IMG/VR virus record: IMGVR_UViG_3300024999_000018
Span: 1 to 50,113 of that record
Length of the DNA: 50,113 nt
DNA from: a virus
Direction: 5' to 3' (one strand)
Shown here: positions 35,084-48,153 of the stretch, in pieces
How the letters are laid out: each line of letters begins with the position of its first letter
Numbering within the stretch: position 1 is the first letter of the stretch
The notes under the pieces: generated by a model
What the model saw: only the letters and a program-made list of their open reading frames with translations
Database searches by the model: none
Told to the model about the DNA's origin: nothing
Translations under genes and position numbers: made by a program

Positions 35084-35189
35084 GAAAGAGTGGCGAAATT
35101 GGATAGACGCTAGGTAGCTCCTAGCCCCGTTCGACTCGGGGATGAAATACACTCGGATAGTGATGCAGGTTCGAATCCTGTCTCTTTCC
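35084..35189 (+). tRNA. tRNA-like gene 1, long-variable-arm (Leu/Ser) type with an extra hairpin
   Basis: Acceptor GAAAGAG (35084-35090) pairs with CTCTTTC (35182-35188); an outer G:C pair extends it. TG-GCG...CGC gives a 3-bp D stem with a Leu-like loop AAATTGGATAGA. The T arm GCAGG-TTCGAAT-CCTGT is normal. Between D and T arms are three hairpins rather than two: CTAGG/CCTAG, CCCCG-TTCGACT-CGGGG (a 7-nt loop that would read CGA, a Ser anticodon) and CACT/AGTG as variable arm. The first hairpin has no place in a normal tRNA, and C at position 37 is atypical. The anticodon is therefore uncertain. Confidence 0.6.
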
Positions 35190-40400: not shown

Positions 40401-40838
40401 ATGAGCGAATTCGACGAAGAAATGGCAGCAATGAACGAGACTCTCCTTGACATCGACACCAGTGACTCTCAGGAGCCCACTACTGTGGAACCAGGCGAGT
40501 ACAAAATTCGCATCACGGGATTCAGGAAGGATAACGAAGGCAAGGTGATTCGTACTTCTGAAGCAGGAAATAAGTTCTTCATTACAGTATTCGATATTCC
40601 TGATGAGGAATTCTCTAAGGGCCTGAGCAAAATGTTCATGGTCCCGACTCCTGAGATGGAGCCCAAACGTCTGAATGCAGTGAAGTGGGACCTTGAGTGC
40701 TTCAAGAGAGCTTTCGGCCTTGCCGAAATTAACTTCTCTAATATGGTCGGCAAGGAGGGTTATGCCATCTTGGGAGTCTCCCACTCAGAACAATACGGGA
40801 ATCAGAACGAAGTGAAGAAGTTCGTCACGGGGGCCTAA
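40401..40838 (+). CDS. Probable single-stranded DNA-binding protein, DUF669-like (145 aa)
   Basis: EPGEYKIRITGFRKDNEGKVIRTSEAGNKFFITVFDIPDEEFSKGLSKMFMVP looks like the OB-type core of phage DUF669/SSB-like proteins, followed by KRLNAVKWDLECFKRAFGL and a final KEGYAILGVSHSEQYGNQNEVKKF strand pair. Phages with Sak4 carry an SSB next to it, which supports the call. Assignment rests on pattern and context, without a decisive motif. Confidence 0.6.
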   Translation: MSEFDEEMAAMNETLLDIDTSDSQEPTTVEPGEYKIRITGFRKDNEGKVIRTSEAGNKFFITVFDIPDEEFSKGLSKMFMVPTPEMEPKRLNAVKWDLECFKRAFGLAEINFSNMVGKEGYAILGVSHSEQYGNQNEVKKFVTGA

Positions 40839-40847
40839 GTAGACTGT

Positions 40848-41076
40848 ATGGGAATGGCGAAATTGGTAAACGCTGATATATGGCACAGAGATACGGGAAA
40901 CCTGATAGGCGTGGAGACACGTAGGCCAGTTGATCAGGACGTTGGGGACAAGGCCCCGCTAACGCTGCGCATCGCCCGTGCGAATATGAGAGCTTCCGGT
41001 ATGGTCTAGGTAGTGTATTCTAGGTCGATGGTTCTCAAATGAAATCTCATTGCAGGTTCGAGTCCTGCTTCCCATA
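40848..41076 (+). tRNA. tRNA-like gene 2 (Leu-like ends) with a structured insert of about 140 nt
   Basis: Acceptor ATGGGAA (40848-40854) pairs exactly with TTCCCAT (41069-41075), and pairing extends two bases outwards. TG-GCG-AAATTGGTAAA-CGC is a Leu-type D arm. The T arm GCAGG-TTCGAGT-CCTGC is perfect, and AATGA-AATC-TCATT directly before it fits a long variable arm. Between D and variable arms lie about 160 nt instead of about 20. This insert has nested helices: CCTGAT/ATCAGG, GTG-GAGA-CAC (GNRA loop), GG-GAAA-CC, CGTT-GGGG/CCCC-AACG. An intron in the anticodon arm, possibly a very small group I type, is the best reading; exon ends cannot be fixed by eye. Confidence 0.6.
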
Positions 41077-41151
41077 CTAATAGATTGTAGGGAAGGTAGA
41101 GGTGGTAACCAGTGCCAGTCTAAAGCTCAAACCATTGACTCTTGTCTGCCT

Positions 41152-41181
41152 TTGCTACATTATGTAATGTAACATAGAAAT
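41152..41181 (+). repeat. Dispersed 30-bp palindrome, copy 14
   Basis: Plus arms TTGCTACATTATG and TAATGTAACATAG. ATG of the Tad2 gene is 14 nt downstream, with GGAGG between. Confidence 0.88.
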
Positions 41182-41195
41182 CGGAGGAATCTAAT

Positions 41196-41441
41196 ATGGA
41201 TTTTGGTGAAGCCTTAGATGTACTAAAACACGGAAATAGTGTCCAGAGATCTGGTTGGAATGGTAAGGGACTCTGGCTTACTCTCCAGACTCCTGATGCT
41301 AACAGTAAAATGACTCTCCCTTACATCTACATCAGCTATCCCACAGATGCTATTAACACACCTGGAGCACGAGTTCCCTGGTTAGCATCTCAGACAGACC
41401 TTCTTGCTGAAGATTGGGACGTAGTAAGTGAGAAGGTATAG
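41196..41441 (+). CDS. tad2: Thoeris anti-defence protein Tad2 (DUF2829 family)
   Basis: MDFGEALDVLKHGNSVQRSGWNGKGLWLTLQTP, then LPYIYISYPTDA and VPWLASQTDLLAEDWDVV: this is the full DUF2829 pattern over its usual length (81 aa). The family includes Tad2, which binds cyclic ADP-ribose-type signals (gcADPR) and blocks Thoeris defence. The motif W-NGKG, the PWLASQTDLLAEDW block and size are intact. It has its own leader with a dispersed palindrome, GGAGG 7 nt before the ATG. The ligand of this copy cannot be told from sequence. Confidence 0.92.
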   Translation: MDFGEALDVLKHGNSVQRSGWNGKGLWLTLQTPDANSKMTLPYIYISYPTDAINTPGARVPWLASQTDLLAEDWDVVSEKV

Positions 41442-41446
41442 AATTA

Positions 41447-41476
41447 TTCCTTTGTTACAATATGTAACATAGCATT
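41447..41476 (+). repeat. Dispersed 30-bp palindrome, copy 15
   Basis: Plus arms TTCCTTTGTTACA and TGTAACATAGCAT. It follows the Tad2 stop by 5 nt, so Tad2 is flanked by a copy on each side. Confidence 0.9.
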
Positions 41477-42059: not shown

Positions 42060-42265
42060 TGCCACTGACAAACATCAAAGGGAGAATCTTTGGCGAGTGG
42101 AAAGTTGGAGAGAGGGCTCCTTCTATAGGTGGTCACGTAAGATGGATCGCCACTTGCTCCTGCGGTAACGTGAGAGAAGTTAGAGGAGACAATCTCCTGA
42201 AAGGAAAATCAACTAAGTGCAAACCCTGCGCATTAGCGCAACTATACAAGAGGTACAAATCATGA
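42056..42265 (+). CDS. Zinc-finger protein of homing-nuclease-associated type (69 aa)
   Basis: IKGRIFGEWKVGERAPSIGGHVRWIATCSCGNVREVRGDNLLKGKSTKCKPCA follows the pattern 'G..fG.w.V......R W.C.CdCG......g..L..G....C..C' that forms the N-terminal DNA-binding part of many phage HNH/AP2 proteins. No nuclease domain follows, so it is a stand-alone or degenerate form. It overlaps the MTase gene start by 4 bp. Confidence 0.7.
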   Translation: MMPLTNIKGRIFGEWKVGERAPSIGGHVRWIATCSCGNVREVRGDNLLKGKSTKCKPCALAQLYKRYKS

Positions 42266-43611
42266 CCCAAGATGTTTCACAACTTCTCTACGTTCCCATC
42301 GAGGACATAGACATAGGGGATAGATTCAGGAAAGATTACGGTGACCTAGGCCAGTTGATCTACTCGATCAAGAAAAACGGCCTTATCACTCCTGTAGCCG
42401 TAGGCCTTACTGAGTCCCTCAAAATCGACTGTAAGTCCGATAAGAAGTATACCCTCCTAGCTGGTGGCCGTCGAATGGCTGCCATCCTAGACATGAAATG
42501 GTCTCATGTGCCAGCCAAGATCTATGATCAACCTCTGACCGAACTCGACTTCAGATCCATCGAACTCGCTGAAAACTTGGACCGCAAGGAGATGACCTAT
42601 GTCGAAGAAATCGCCCTCAAAAGAAAGATTAACGATCTGCAGATCAGCATACATGGAGCCAAGCATTCTAAAACACCTGATGCGGCAGGATGGTCTCAAG
42701 CAGACACCTCTAGGCTCCTTAAGGAGAGTCCTGCTAACCTTACGAGGGATCTTAAGTTGGCGCAAGCGATAGAACAGTTCCCGCAGATTGGACTGGATAA
42801 ATGTAAGTCCAAGTCTGACGCACTAAAGTTGCTCAACAGTATTGGTAAGAAACTGAACAATTCCATGCAAAGTGAGAAGTTTACTAAGGACATGGGAACT
42901 GGAGACAAGACCTTCAAGAAACTCCACGACTCCTACATTCTTCGTGACTGCTTCGAAACCTTTGCTCAGATCCCAGCTAAGTCCATAGACTTCATCGAGA
43001 TCGATCCTCCTTATGCCATGGACCTCCATTCGAAGAAGTCTGAAGGCTCCATGCTAGGTTATAATGAAATCGAGATGCTGGCCTATCCTGAGTTCATCAC
43101 CAAAGTCCTAACCGAATCCCGCCGTATCCTCCGAGATGACGGCTGGATGATCTGCTGGTTTGCTATGGACCCTTGGTTCAACTTCATCTCCACCCTCTTG
43201 AAAGAGATTGGCTTCAAACTCAACCTCCTCCCCGGCTTATGGATAAAGCCGACTGGTCAGACTATGCAACCCGAAACTCAATTCGCCAACTGTTATGAAC
43301 CCTTCTTCTACTGTAGGAAGAATGGTAGTGCTAAGTTAAATAAGATGGGTCGGTCCAATATCTTCGAGTTCAACCCGATGCCACCAGCTCAGAAGATCCA
43401 TCCCACTCAACGTCCACTCCCTCTCATGATCGAGGTCTTCAGCACCTTCTGTGCTCCGGGCAAGAGTGCATACATTCCCTTTCTAGGGTCTGGTACCAGT
43501 CTCCTAGCAGCCCATACGTGCAAGGTTGGAGCCTTTGGTAATGACCTTACTAAAGAGTTTAAAGAGGGATTTATAGTTCAACTTCAAGCCTACCTGAAGG
43601 GCTGCGTATGA
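42262..43611 (+). CDS. ParB-like domain / DNA methyltransferase fusion (449 aa)
   Basis: Residues 10-115 are a ParB/Srx-like domain (VPIEDIDIGDRFRKDYGDLGQLIYSIKKNGLITPVAV; LLAGGRRMAAI at 65-75; ENLDRKEM at 104-111) and 116-200 a helical KorB/HTH-like part. Residues 215-445 are a methyltransferase: DPPY at 248-251 and the S-AdoMet motif FLGSGT at 407-412, with HPTQRPLPLM before it, so DPPY comes first (beta-class N6-adenine/N4-cytosine order). All key residues are present. ATG at 42262 overlaps the previous stop. It may protect phage DNA from restriction. Confidence 0.9.
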   Translation: MTQDVSQLLYVPIEDIDIGDRFRKDYGDLGQLIYSIKKNGLITPVAVGLTESLKIDCKSDKKYTLLAGGRRMAAILDMKWSHVPAKIYDQPLTELDFRSIELAENLDRKEMTYVEEIALKRKINDLQISIHGAKHSKTPDAAGWSQADTSRLLKESPANLTRDLKLAQAIEQFPQIGLDKCKSKSDALKLLNSIGKKLNNSMQSEKFTKDMGTGDKTFKKLHDSYILRDCFETFAQIPAKSIDFIEIDPPYAMDLHSKKSEGSMLGYNEIEMLAYPEFITKVLTESRRILRDDGWMICWFAMDPWFNFISTLLKEIGFKLNLLPGLWIKPTGQTMQPETQFANCYEPFFYCRKNGSAKLNKMGRSNIFEFNPMPPAQKIHPTQRPLPLMIEVFSTFCAPGKSAYIPFLGSGTSLLAAHTCKVGAFGNDLTKEFKEGFIVQLQAYLKGCV

Positions 43612-45666: not shown

Positions 45667-48153
45667 ATGAGAGCAACTTACGTACCCCCATCTGGCTCTA
45701 AATCCTCCCCTTACATAATCGTAGGTGAGCAGCCTGGGAAGACAGAAATCATGCGAGGGAGGCCCTTCTGTGGACCCTCCGGCGTGGAGCTTGAAGATAA
45801 CCTCCGCATCGCGGGGATTAATCGTGCGGACTGTTACTTTACTAATGTCATCAAGGACGCCGATAGACCCCTCGGTCACTACATTGAATTCAATCCGAGG
45901 AAGGGTACTGTAATCCATCCTCCTGGACAGGAGTACATCAATGAACTCGCAAGAGAACTTACAGAATGCTCAGGTAAAGTTATTATCGCTCTTGGTAACA
46001 CTGCGCTCTTTGCTCTGTGCGATAGAGTGGGTGTCACGAAGTGGAGGGGTTCAGTACTTTCCCCAACGCTCATCTCGGATAAGACGCTTATCCCGTCGAT
46101 CCACCCGTCGACGATCATCTTCCCGAAGAATCAATACACCAACAAAAGACTCCTCATCTACGATTTACTGAGGGCTCGCCAAGTAAAAGAGGGGAAGTGG
46201 AAAACCCTAGATCGCCATATAGCCATCCGTCCCACCTTCTCCCAGGCCCTAAACTTCCTCAACGTCTGCTCTATGTGGGGCAAACTTGGGAACCCCGTCG
46301 CTTACGACATCGAAGTGGATGTGTTCAACGGAGAGATGACCTGCATCTCTTTTGCTTACACCCCTACAGATGTTATGTCCATCCCTTTTACTTGTGAGAG
46401 GGGGGACTACTTCACTCTCCCACAAGAATCGGAGATTCTTAAGAAAATTGCCTCCATTCTCGAGGACCCTACTATCCCCATCCTAGGCCAGAACCTAGTG
46501 TTCGATTGCCACTACATGCTGAGGAAATATGGAATCCACACATCCAATATACACGATACAATGGTTGCGCAGAAGACTCTACTACCTGACTATCCTGTCG
46601 GCCTCCACTTCATTTGCTCTCAGTATACTGACATTCCTTACTACAAGGATGACGGAAAGTACTGGCTTAAAGGTATTGGTAATTGGGAATCTGGTTGGCG
46701 TTACAATGCTCTTGATTCTGTGGTCTGTGCTGATGCATACCCTAAGCAAATGGAAGCACTTTTCAAACAACACAACTACTTCGCCTACGAAAGAAAGCGG
46801 AAGTCCATCCTCCCCTACGTCTTCATAATGGAGCATGGAATTAGAATTAACCTCGGTTCTATGCAACAAGCCTACAATGATGCTGAGCGTGAAGAGCAGG
46901 ATCTACTGAGACAGTTACATGCAAAGTGTGGCTTTGAGCTGAACCCTAACTCTCCCAAGCAAGTAGCCACTTACTTCTATGTCACCAAGAAGTTACCTGC
47001 GTATAAGAACAAGACTGGAGGTAACACCACTGATGAAAAAGCCCTTAAACGAATCGCCCGTAAAGGCTACCCCGAGGCCTCAATCATCCTTAAAATTCGT
47101 GGACTTAACAAAGAACGAGCAACTTTTCTCGACACTTCTAAAGTTGACTCTGATGGAAGAATGCGATGCTCTTACAACCCAGTTGGAACTCGATTCTCTA
47201 GGGCTTCAAGCTCTGAGAATATATTCGGGACAGGTAACAATCTTCAGAACCAACCCCATAGGGTGCTTACACACTTCCTTGCCGATCCCTATCACGTATT
47301 CTATGGGATGGACCTAGGACAGGCAGAGAATAGGATCGTGGCCTACGTGGGACGCATCACTCAGATGATCGAATGCTTCGAAACCAAACAAGACGTACAT
47401 AGTCTAGTAGCATTAATCATGGCTAACATGTACTACGGAGGCAAGCTTCCTCCAGGATTTGATCCTCGTCACACACTTGCTCCAATTGGTGACGGAAAGA
47501 AACCCTGGCGTGACTGGGGCAAGAAGACTGGCCACGCAGCAAACTATGACATCACCTATAAGACCCTTGCTCTCTACAATGAGATACCAGAACGCGATGG
47601 TAAGATGATTCTGGATATCTACCACAAAGGATTTCCCGGTGTGAGGAATGGATTCCACGCCTATGTCCAAGGATGTATAAACCGAAACAGGACACTGACT
47701 AACTTGATGGACCGTAAGACAGTGTTCACAGATAAAATAGATGACCAGTTATATAGGGAAGCTTATGCCTGCATACCTCAAGGAACAGTTGGAGATATCA
47801 TCGATGAACGAGGTCTTAACTTCGTCTACTACTACAGAGATCCCATCTTCAGAAGTGTCAAACTTCTTATCCAAGTTCACGATCAAATTGGATTCCAAAT
47901 CCCGACGCCTATGCATCCAACCGACCCCGTCCCTTGGGCAGCCCACTCCAAAATCCTTGGAATGATTAAGGCCTCTCTTGAGACTCCCCTCTACACCCAC
48001 TATGGCCTCAAGTTTGTAATCCCTGCAGATACGACAATGGGAGTCTCATTGAATAAGGAATTGGGTCAGGACTTAGACTCCTTCGACCCAGAGTATCTGG
48101 AAAAGACTTACTACAAGTGTACTGATAAATGGTTACCTGAAGTTAGAATGTAG
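45667..48153 (+). CDS. Uracil-DNA glycosylase / family A DNA polymerase fusion (828 aa)
   Basis: Residues 1-175 are a family 4/5-like uracil-DNA glycosylase: GEQPG at 20-24, GRPFCGPSG at 31-39 and SIHPS at 144-148. Residues 208-360 are a 3'-5' exonuclease with DIE (214-216), NLVFD (276-280) and YNALD (346-350) intact. The polymerase part has TRFSRASS, motif A with Asp549 (GMDLGQAENR), motif B region KKTGHAANYDITY and motif C VHDQ (737-740), where the usual HDE is HDQ. It is the replicative polymerase of the phage. A UDG-polymerase fusion is known from SPO1-type phages. Confidence 0.92.
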   Translation: MRATYVPPSGSKSSPYIIVGEQPGKTEIMRGRPFCGPSGVELEDNLRIAGINRADCYFTNVIKDADRPLGHYIEFNPRKGTVIHPPGQEYINELARELTECSGKVIIALGNTALFALCDRVGVTKWRGSVLSPTLISDKTLIPSIHPSTIIFPKNQYTNKRLLIYDLLRARQVKEGKWKTLDRHIAIRPTFSQALNFLNVCSMWGKLGNPVAYDIEVDVFNGEMTCISFAYTPTDVMSIPFTCERGDYFTLPQESEILKKIASILEDPTIPILGQNLVFDCHYMLRKYGIHTSNIHDTMVAQKTLLPDYPVGLHFICSQYTDIPYYKDDGKYWLKGIGNWESGWRYNALDSVVCADAYPKQMEALFKQHNYFAYERKRKSILPYVFIMEHGIRINLGSMQQAYNDAEREEQDLLRQLHAKCGFELNPNSPKQVATYFYVTKKLPAYKNKTGGNTTDEKALKRIARKGYPEASIILKIRGLNKERATFLDTSKVDSDGRMRCSYNPVGTRFSRASSSENIFGTGNNLQNQPHRVLTHFLADPYHVFYGMDLGQAENRIVAYVGRITQMIECFETKQDVHSLVALIMANMYYGGKLPPGFDPRHTLAPIGDGKKPWRDWGKKTGHAANYDITYKTLALYNEIPERDGKMILDIYHKGFPGVRNGFHAYVQGCINRNRTLTNLMDRKTVFTDKIDDQLYREAYACIPQGTVGDIIDERGLNFVYYYRDPIFRSVKLLIQVHDQIGFQIPTPMHPTDPVPWAAHSKILGMIKASLETPLYTHYGLKFVIPADTTMGVSLNKELGQDLDSFDPEYLEKTYYKCTDKWLPEVRM

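Follow-up and report, generated by a model that had tools for sequence, protein, structure and literature searches.

The window, the whole 50,113-nucleotide stretch of viral DNA analysed here, comes from a tailed phage that encodes a terminase, a portal protein, Sak4, a DNA polymerase and a primase. Two of its genes combine domains: one (45667-48153) encodes a family A DNA polymerase that has a uracil-DNA glycosylase domain at its N-terminus, and the other (42217-43611) a DNA methyltransferase fused to a ParB N-terminal domain, a fusion also found in L021 (2213-3556). Between the conserved gene ORF145 and a Tad2-like gene lies RNA1, a tRNA-shaped RNA preceded by no recognisable promoter and followed by no recognisable terminator. 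The features of RNA1 and its surroundings are as follows, with the evidence for each in brackets.

35084-35188, + strand: RNA2, a second member of the same class, 105 nt, with a Leu-type D-arm, a T-arm and a 7-bp acceptor plus outer pairs (sequence comparison)
40401-40838, + strand: ORF145, the conserved gene directly upstream of RNA1, which marks an accessory site (comparison with relatives)
40848-41076, + strand: RNA1, tRNA-shaped RNA, from acceptor nucleotide 1 to A73 (sequence, folding, identical copies in L001 and L002)
40848-40854, + strand: acceptor stem 5' strand AUGGGAA, partner 41069-41075 (pair probabilities 0.73-1.0)
40855-40873, + strand: U8-G9 and Leu-type D-arm GGCGAAAUUGGUAAACGC (sequence pattern; D-stem not formed in the unconstrained ensemble)
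40874-41051, + strand: 178-nt core replacing the anticodon and variable arms (no restorable anticodon arm; hypervariable across the class)
40876-40883, + strand: candidate helix a 5' strand, partner 40996-41002, one bulged G, tentative (analogy with L052 and L613)
40901-40938, + strand: candidate domain CCUGAU/AUCAGG with the inner GNRA hairpin CGUG-GAGA-CACG at 40910-40921 (shell-constrained fold)
40940-40964, + strand: hairpin CGUU-GGGG..CCCC-GCU-AACG (shell-constrained fold)
40968-40982, + strand: hairpin CGCA..UGCG (folding)
40986-40991, + strand: candidate helix b 5' strand AUGAGA, partner UCUCAU at 41045-41050 beside the T-stem, tentative (same position as the covarying helix b of two subfamilies)
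41005-41024, + strand: hairpin UCUAG..CUAGG (folding)
41052-41068, + strand: T-arm GCAGG-UUCGAGU-CCUGC (folding)
41069-41076, + strand: acceptor 3' strand and A73, with the encoded tail CUA (sequence)
41196-41441, + strand: Tad2-like (Thoeris anti-defence) gene, gained and lost jointly with RNA1 (PF11195, E 6e-23)

Several smaller elements accompany these features. Directly 3' of RNA1 (41085-41160) there is a long stem, GUAG.AAGGUAGAG / CUUGUCUGCCUU.GCUAC, and a comparable long stem occupies the same place after ORF145 in L016 and L602. Short elements of the TTACATTATGTAACATAG type are found at 41158-41177, at 41452-41475 and in relatives, where they recur in intergenic positions and at the borders of accessory segments. 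Within RNA2, the internal hairpin CCCCG-UUCGACU-CGGGG (35125-35141) resembles a T-arm, and similar internal T-loop hairpins are present in other members of the class (e.g., L286).

RNA1 displays the shell of a leucine tRNA. Its 7-bp acceptor stem (AUGGGAA/UUCCCAU) is perfect in sequence and in folding, and two outer pairs extend it (40846-40847 with 41076-41077). U8 corresponds to 40855, the D-stem to 40857-40859/40871-40873 with a Leu-type D-loop containing GG, and A73 to 41076, which is followed by CUA, CCA not being encoded. An earlier note, made from the sequence, had described a Leu-like tRNA with good acceptor, D and T arms and about 140 extra nt. In line with this description, the folding ensemble gives the acceptor and the perfect T-stem pair probabilities of 0.73-1.0, and 178 nt separate the D-arm from the T-stem, compared with ~35 in an ordinary tRNA-Leu. 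The 3-bp D-stem has a probability of 0 in the unconstrained ensemble and is supported by its sequence pattern. The helices with GNRA-type loops that the note saw in the insert were borne out as far as a GAGA-loop hairpin and other hairpins are concerned, but the stability of the fold is unremarkable (z -1.34, with equal stability in 21 of 200 shuffles). RNA1 exceeds chance in its tRNA shell and not in how stably it folds. Since the fold energy is ordinary and the D-stem is absent from the unconstrained ensemble, the case for RNA1 rests on its shell and on comparison with other RNAs. L001 and L002 carry identical copies, blastn against phage and plasmid records gave no credible homologue but only short T-arm matches with high E-values, and sequence searches found no divergent homologue of its core.

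The same note had located the extra sequence within the anticodon arm and proposed a small self-splicing intron, neither of which held. In a single-excision test covering every insertion point at positions 27-43 and variable-region lengths of 3-24 nt, RNA1 yielded 0 candidates for an anticodon arm with a 5-bp stem and a 7-nt loop, with or without U33. It is RNA1 that fails and not the test, because the latter recovers the group I-like tRNA-Leu of L121 and the anticodon-loop insert of L039, and a test of the same kind, applied to 69 phage tRNAs that carry small inserts, restores a perfect anticodon stem in 30 of them (0.1 in shuffles). Two separate inserts could be imagined, without support. 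Rfam returned no group I match at E<=5 for RNA1, L613 or L052, and none at gathering level at the class RNAs of nine loci; a group I match elsewhere in L130 indicates that the model is functional. Inspection by eye gave no convincing assignment of a P7 guanosine site, a U.G at the 5' splice site or a terminal G in RNA1. Lacking both an Rfam match and a restorable anticodon arm, RNA1 was rejected as a minimal group I intron.

Annotation programs did not yield another identity. Rfam at gathering thresholds and ARAGORN at default settings report nothing at RNA1, and a permissive Rfam scan gave three chance-level matches only, none of them to group I, tRNA or tmRNA models. If ARAGORN is allowed introns, it suggests an Ala(GGC) arm whose stem is mismatched and which contradicts the Leu-type D-arm; its tmRNA fits appear at a lowered threshold only, with the remark 'tag not identified'. 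A tmRNA was rejected for want of a match at normal thresholds in either program and of a recognisable tag reading frame, and a decoding tRNA was rejected as neither the covariance model nor ARAGORN at default detects one with an anticodon.

The small inserts just mentioned interrupt ordinary phage tRNAs (Asn, Lys and others) at L424 (4649-5197), L408, L449 and other loci. They measure ~40-60 nt and split the anticodon stem on its 5' side, in most cases behind nucleotide 28 or 29, and many contain a hairpin followed by ACAGCA. These inserts have the appearance of very small tRNA introns that form a class of their own.

RNA1 is one of many such RNAs. Viral contigs were searched for Leu-type D-arms whose distance from a T-arm is 2-5 times the normal one; once filtered for a matching acceptor stem, the hits gave at least 105 nonredundant long Leu-type members with quite different cores, a count that includes a few artefacts (the automatic filter let some tandem or duplicated tRNAs through) and whose length distribution is set by the chosen search windows. 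Reading of the sequences showed L151, L205, L210 and L082 to be tandem-tRNA or duplication artefacts, with either another full tRNA-Leu gene or an additional T-arm. RNA1 has the combination that defines the class: a 7-bp acceptor, a D-arm and a T-arm at least 55 nt apart, no second T-arm and no anticodon arm. Compared with ordinary tRNA-Leu genes at the same loci, long members rarely encode CCA (5/105 vs 54/98) and often begin with A1-U72 (48/105 vs 3/98), the latter excess being partly due to one large subfamily with the acceptor AGTCAGG; RNA1 shows both traits. A73 is present in 76 of the 105 members and in 97 of the 98 ordinary genes. The 9-bp acceptor of RNA1 was considered as a hallmark and dropped, as it shows no general enrichment (12/105 vs 8/98).

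Members also occur in cultured Enterococcus and Listeria phages, and cores are exchanged within a kept shell. The shell ends of the isolate-derived prophage L063 and of Enterococcus phage EH-TP1 are 100% identical, although the cores between them are unrelated and differ in length, and a near-identical shell recurs in Listeria phages of several genera, including PSA, LP-101, LP-114 and B025, where the core measures 42 nt in PSA and about 130 nt in B025. In the temperate Listeria phages examined, the RNA occupies an unannotated stretch that follows the late regulator and precedes HNH or terminase genes; in the scanned Listeria loci (L497, L503) it stands between Rfam rli62 upstream and the mcrA RNA downstream, ahead of HNH or other genes near the end of the record. 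The Listeria shells carry the T-loop UGCAAAU, in which the universal U55 is lost, which argues against decoding. An identity with the L. monocytogenes sRNA rliG was not supported, A118 itself being without a shell. Another member, L613 (3311-3595), has an extra ~60-nt hairpin inside its D-loop. No Rfam family covers RNA1, L052, L613 or the scanned Listeria and Enterococcus members, and no earlier description was found in the open-access literature, although one may exist elsewhere; the class thus appears to be undescribed and unlisted in Rfam. Its members, widespread and unannotated, enclose a hypervariable core in a tRNA shell that is conserved.

Despite this variability, a common architecture emerges in two subfamilies. 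The alignable one comprises EH-TP1 and Listeria phages LP-101, vB_LmoS_188, LM 4-11-1, B054 and P70. Here, helix a begins 4-5 nt past the D-arm and helix b stops 2 nt before the T-stem, the two being interlocked; 95.7% of cells are paired and 16 pairs show double-sided changes (0/500 shuffles), and sliding the alignment by one column reduces pairing to <46%. L052 and L613, reached by independent routes, form a second, longer subfamily in which a and b are again interlocked with b beside the T-stem. All 44 pairs are kept (100%), with 13 double changes and 5 of the 7 pairs of helix b among those changed (0/500 shuffles), and sliding collapses the pairing. Because both structures were drawn from the scored sequences, the cells-paired figure is biased in their favour, and more weight goes to the double changes. 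At the level of covariation, a pseudoknot whose last strand abuts the T-stem is established as the core of these two subfamilies; the earlier note had listed the lack of a conserved fold among what would count against its reading, and for the class such a fold does exist, in these two subfamilies. Interlocked stems are also enriched at the corresponding positions of the shorter members, with 23 among 87 nonredundant ones compared with 7.1 +- 3.3 in shuffles (score >=26).

By analogy with these subfamilies, the core of RNA1 may possibly contain such a pseudoknot. A model can be drawn from helix a (40876-40883/40996-41002) and helix b (40986-40991/41045-41050), but randomised sequences of equal composition score just as well (p about 0.8), and the pseudoknot of RNA1 is retained as an analogy only. 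Candidate helix a is the best-scoring pair, with 40891-40899/40994-41002 as an alternative, and candidate helix b, not significant alone, competes with a local hairpin (41038-41042/41047-41051). In L528, a helix similar to the 40901-40938 domain, with a GUAA hairpin, appears once helix a is imposed. RNA2 has no a/b pseudoknot, and thus the pseudoknotted core is not universal in the class.

RNA1 and the downstream Tad2 gene form one segment that is missing in near relatives, in which homology ends at the ORF145 stop codon and restarts past Tad2; RNA2 is likewise missing in these relatives. A distant relative (Sak4 68%, ORF145 58%) has a class RNA at the orthologous site, and the sisters L529 and L530 do not. 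The class RNA directly follows ORF145 in the window phage and in L528/L536, L613 carries one beside an ORF145 homologue of only 27% identity, and L608 and L609 have a Tad2-like gene alone at this site. The position behind ORF145 thus serves as an accessory site that class RNAs and Tad2 both make use of. In the L310 prophage, the gene order is sigma factor-Tad2-Acb2-RNA-terminase.

RNA1 therefore possesses a tRNA shell without an anticodon arm, belongs to a large class and is gained and lost as an accessory gene, and the evidence favours the fallback offered by the earlier note, a non-decoding tRNA-like RNA. The reading that we put forward, with a probability of about 0.45, takes RNA1 for a phage RNA of tRNA shape that stands on its own and does not decode; its shell would bind host factors, and the RNA would work as a decoy or inhibitor through its core. 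RNase P and RNase Z would trim the shell and CCA would be added, as for a tRNA, since both enzymes read the acceptor/T-arm half. The shell could then bind host factors that read the tRNA elbow and acceptor, such as LeuRS, EF-Tu or tRNA-targeting immune nucleases, and the fast-changing core would block or titrate the bound partner, so that the RNA, as a decoy or inhibitor, may counter defences or aid host take-over. Counter-defence is the preferred version because of the neighbours, RNA1-Tad2 in the window and Tad2-Acb2 in L310, an association based on few neighbourhoods; it is also consistent with phage tRNAs being known to counteract tRNA-cleaving immunity (PMC13096335). More broadly, and rather doubtfully, the widespread undescribed class might constitute RNA anti-defence modules passed between phages like Tad2 and Acb2, in which the shell enters the host tRNA machinery and the pseudoknotted core is exchangeable.

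Some features of RNA1 would also suit a translation-related RNA, i.e., one that is leucylated, bound by EF-Tu, tmRNA-like or ribosome-targeting instead of an immune decoy. RNA1 keeps a Leu-type D-arm and A73, bacterial LeuRS has no need of the anticodon (as established for the E. coli enzyme, which ignores it), and tmRNA exemplifies a tRNA half joined to pseudoknots that acts on ribosomes. This is nevertheless unlikely given the failure of the tmRNA searches, the loss of A73 in over a quarter of the class but in almost no normal gene, and the Listeria T-loop without U55. A conserved shell around a hypervariable, exchangeable core is also what would be expected if the shell were only a scaffold that ensures the processing and stability of a regulatory antisense RNA in the core, but the cores are structured and covarying, not open, and the longest complementarity of the RNA1 core is 14 nt in its own phage and 14 nt in relatives, which shuffled cores match. 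An antisense target in these genomes was consequently rejected, and the scaffold explanation is rather improbable.

The absence of RNA1 from near relatives, the unencoded CCA and the unremarkable folding z-score would be compatible with a pseudogene, a phage or host tRNA-Leu broken by random insertion. That all three arms of the shell are intact, that more than 100 similar loci exist with covariation in two subfamilies, and that one genome holds two such genes, with one at the orthologous site of a distant relative, leaves this little chance. Least credible is a tRNA gene carrying a self-splicing intron of minimal group I or new type, a reading that is largely refuted, even though tRNA-Leu is a classic group I site, a group I-like tRNA-Leu is present in L121, and the helix order of the long subfamily (a5, domain, b5, a3, hairpin, b3) recalls group I P3, P4-P6, P7, P3', P8, P7'. 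No excision gives RNA1 an anticodon arm, Rfam gives no group I match at either threshold used, and the Enterococcus/Listeria subfamily places its hairpin differently.

Among known systems, the tRNA-Leu with a group I intron (e.g., L121) shares with RNA1 a Leu-type shell and a long insert, but there excision restores the anticodon stem and the insert, on inspection, resembles group I, neither of which applies to RNA1. The tmRNA resembles the class in joining a tRNA acceptor/T-arm half to pseudoknots, whereas RNA1 has an intact Leu-type D-arm, about 230 nt and no recognisable tag reading frame. Bacterial Y RNAs (YrlA) are noncoding RNAs that mimic tRNA; for RNA1, the Rfam scan gave only the three chance matches, from a library that may not include a YrlA model. 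Phage tRNAs such as those of T5 and T6, acting against Septu and other systems, counter tRNA-cleaving immunity and have been discussed as decoy or supplement (PMC13096335). Like RNA1, they are phage-encoded, tRNA-shaped and accessory; however, they decode, whereas RNA1 has no anticodon arm. If the class RNAs are decoys or inhibitors, they would represent an RNA arm of phage counter-defence alongside proteins such as Tad2 and Acb2. The class itself seems to have been overlooked, even in well-studied Listeria and Enterococcus phages, as annotation programs make no call or report an odd intron-bearing tRNA.

The nearest precedent is provided by T4 RNA C (species 1 RNA) and RNA D, stable phage RNAs of about 120-140 nt whose function is unknown (PMC3014915, PMC9697503). 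They are encoded in a tRNA cluster, whereas RNA1 lies outside one. T4 rnaC resembles RNA1 in its tRNA-like 3' half, with a perfect terminal T-arm (CCGGGTTCGAATCCCGG), but by inspection its acceptor ends pair imperfectly and it has no canonical D-arm; no sequence homology between RNA1 and T4 RNA C was found, the matches of RNA1 in the phage collection being short T-arm ones with high E-values, and RNA C is at most a candidate member of the class. Should RNA1 and its relatives act as decoys or inhibitors, this would suggest a testable role for RNAs such as T4 RNA C and RNA D.
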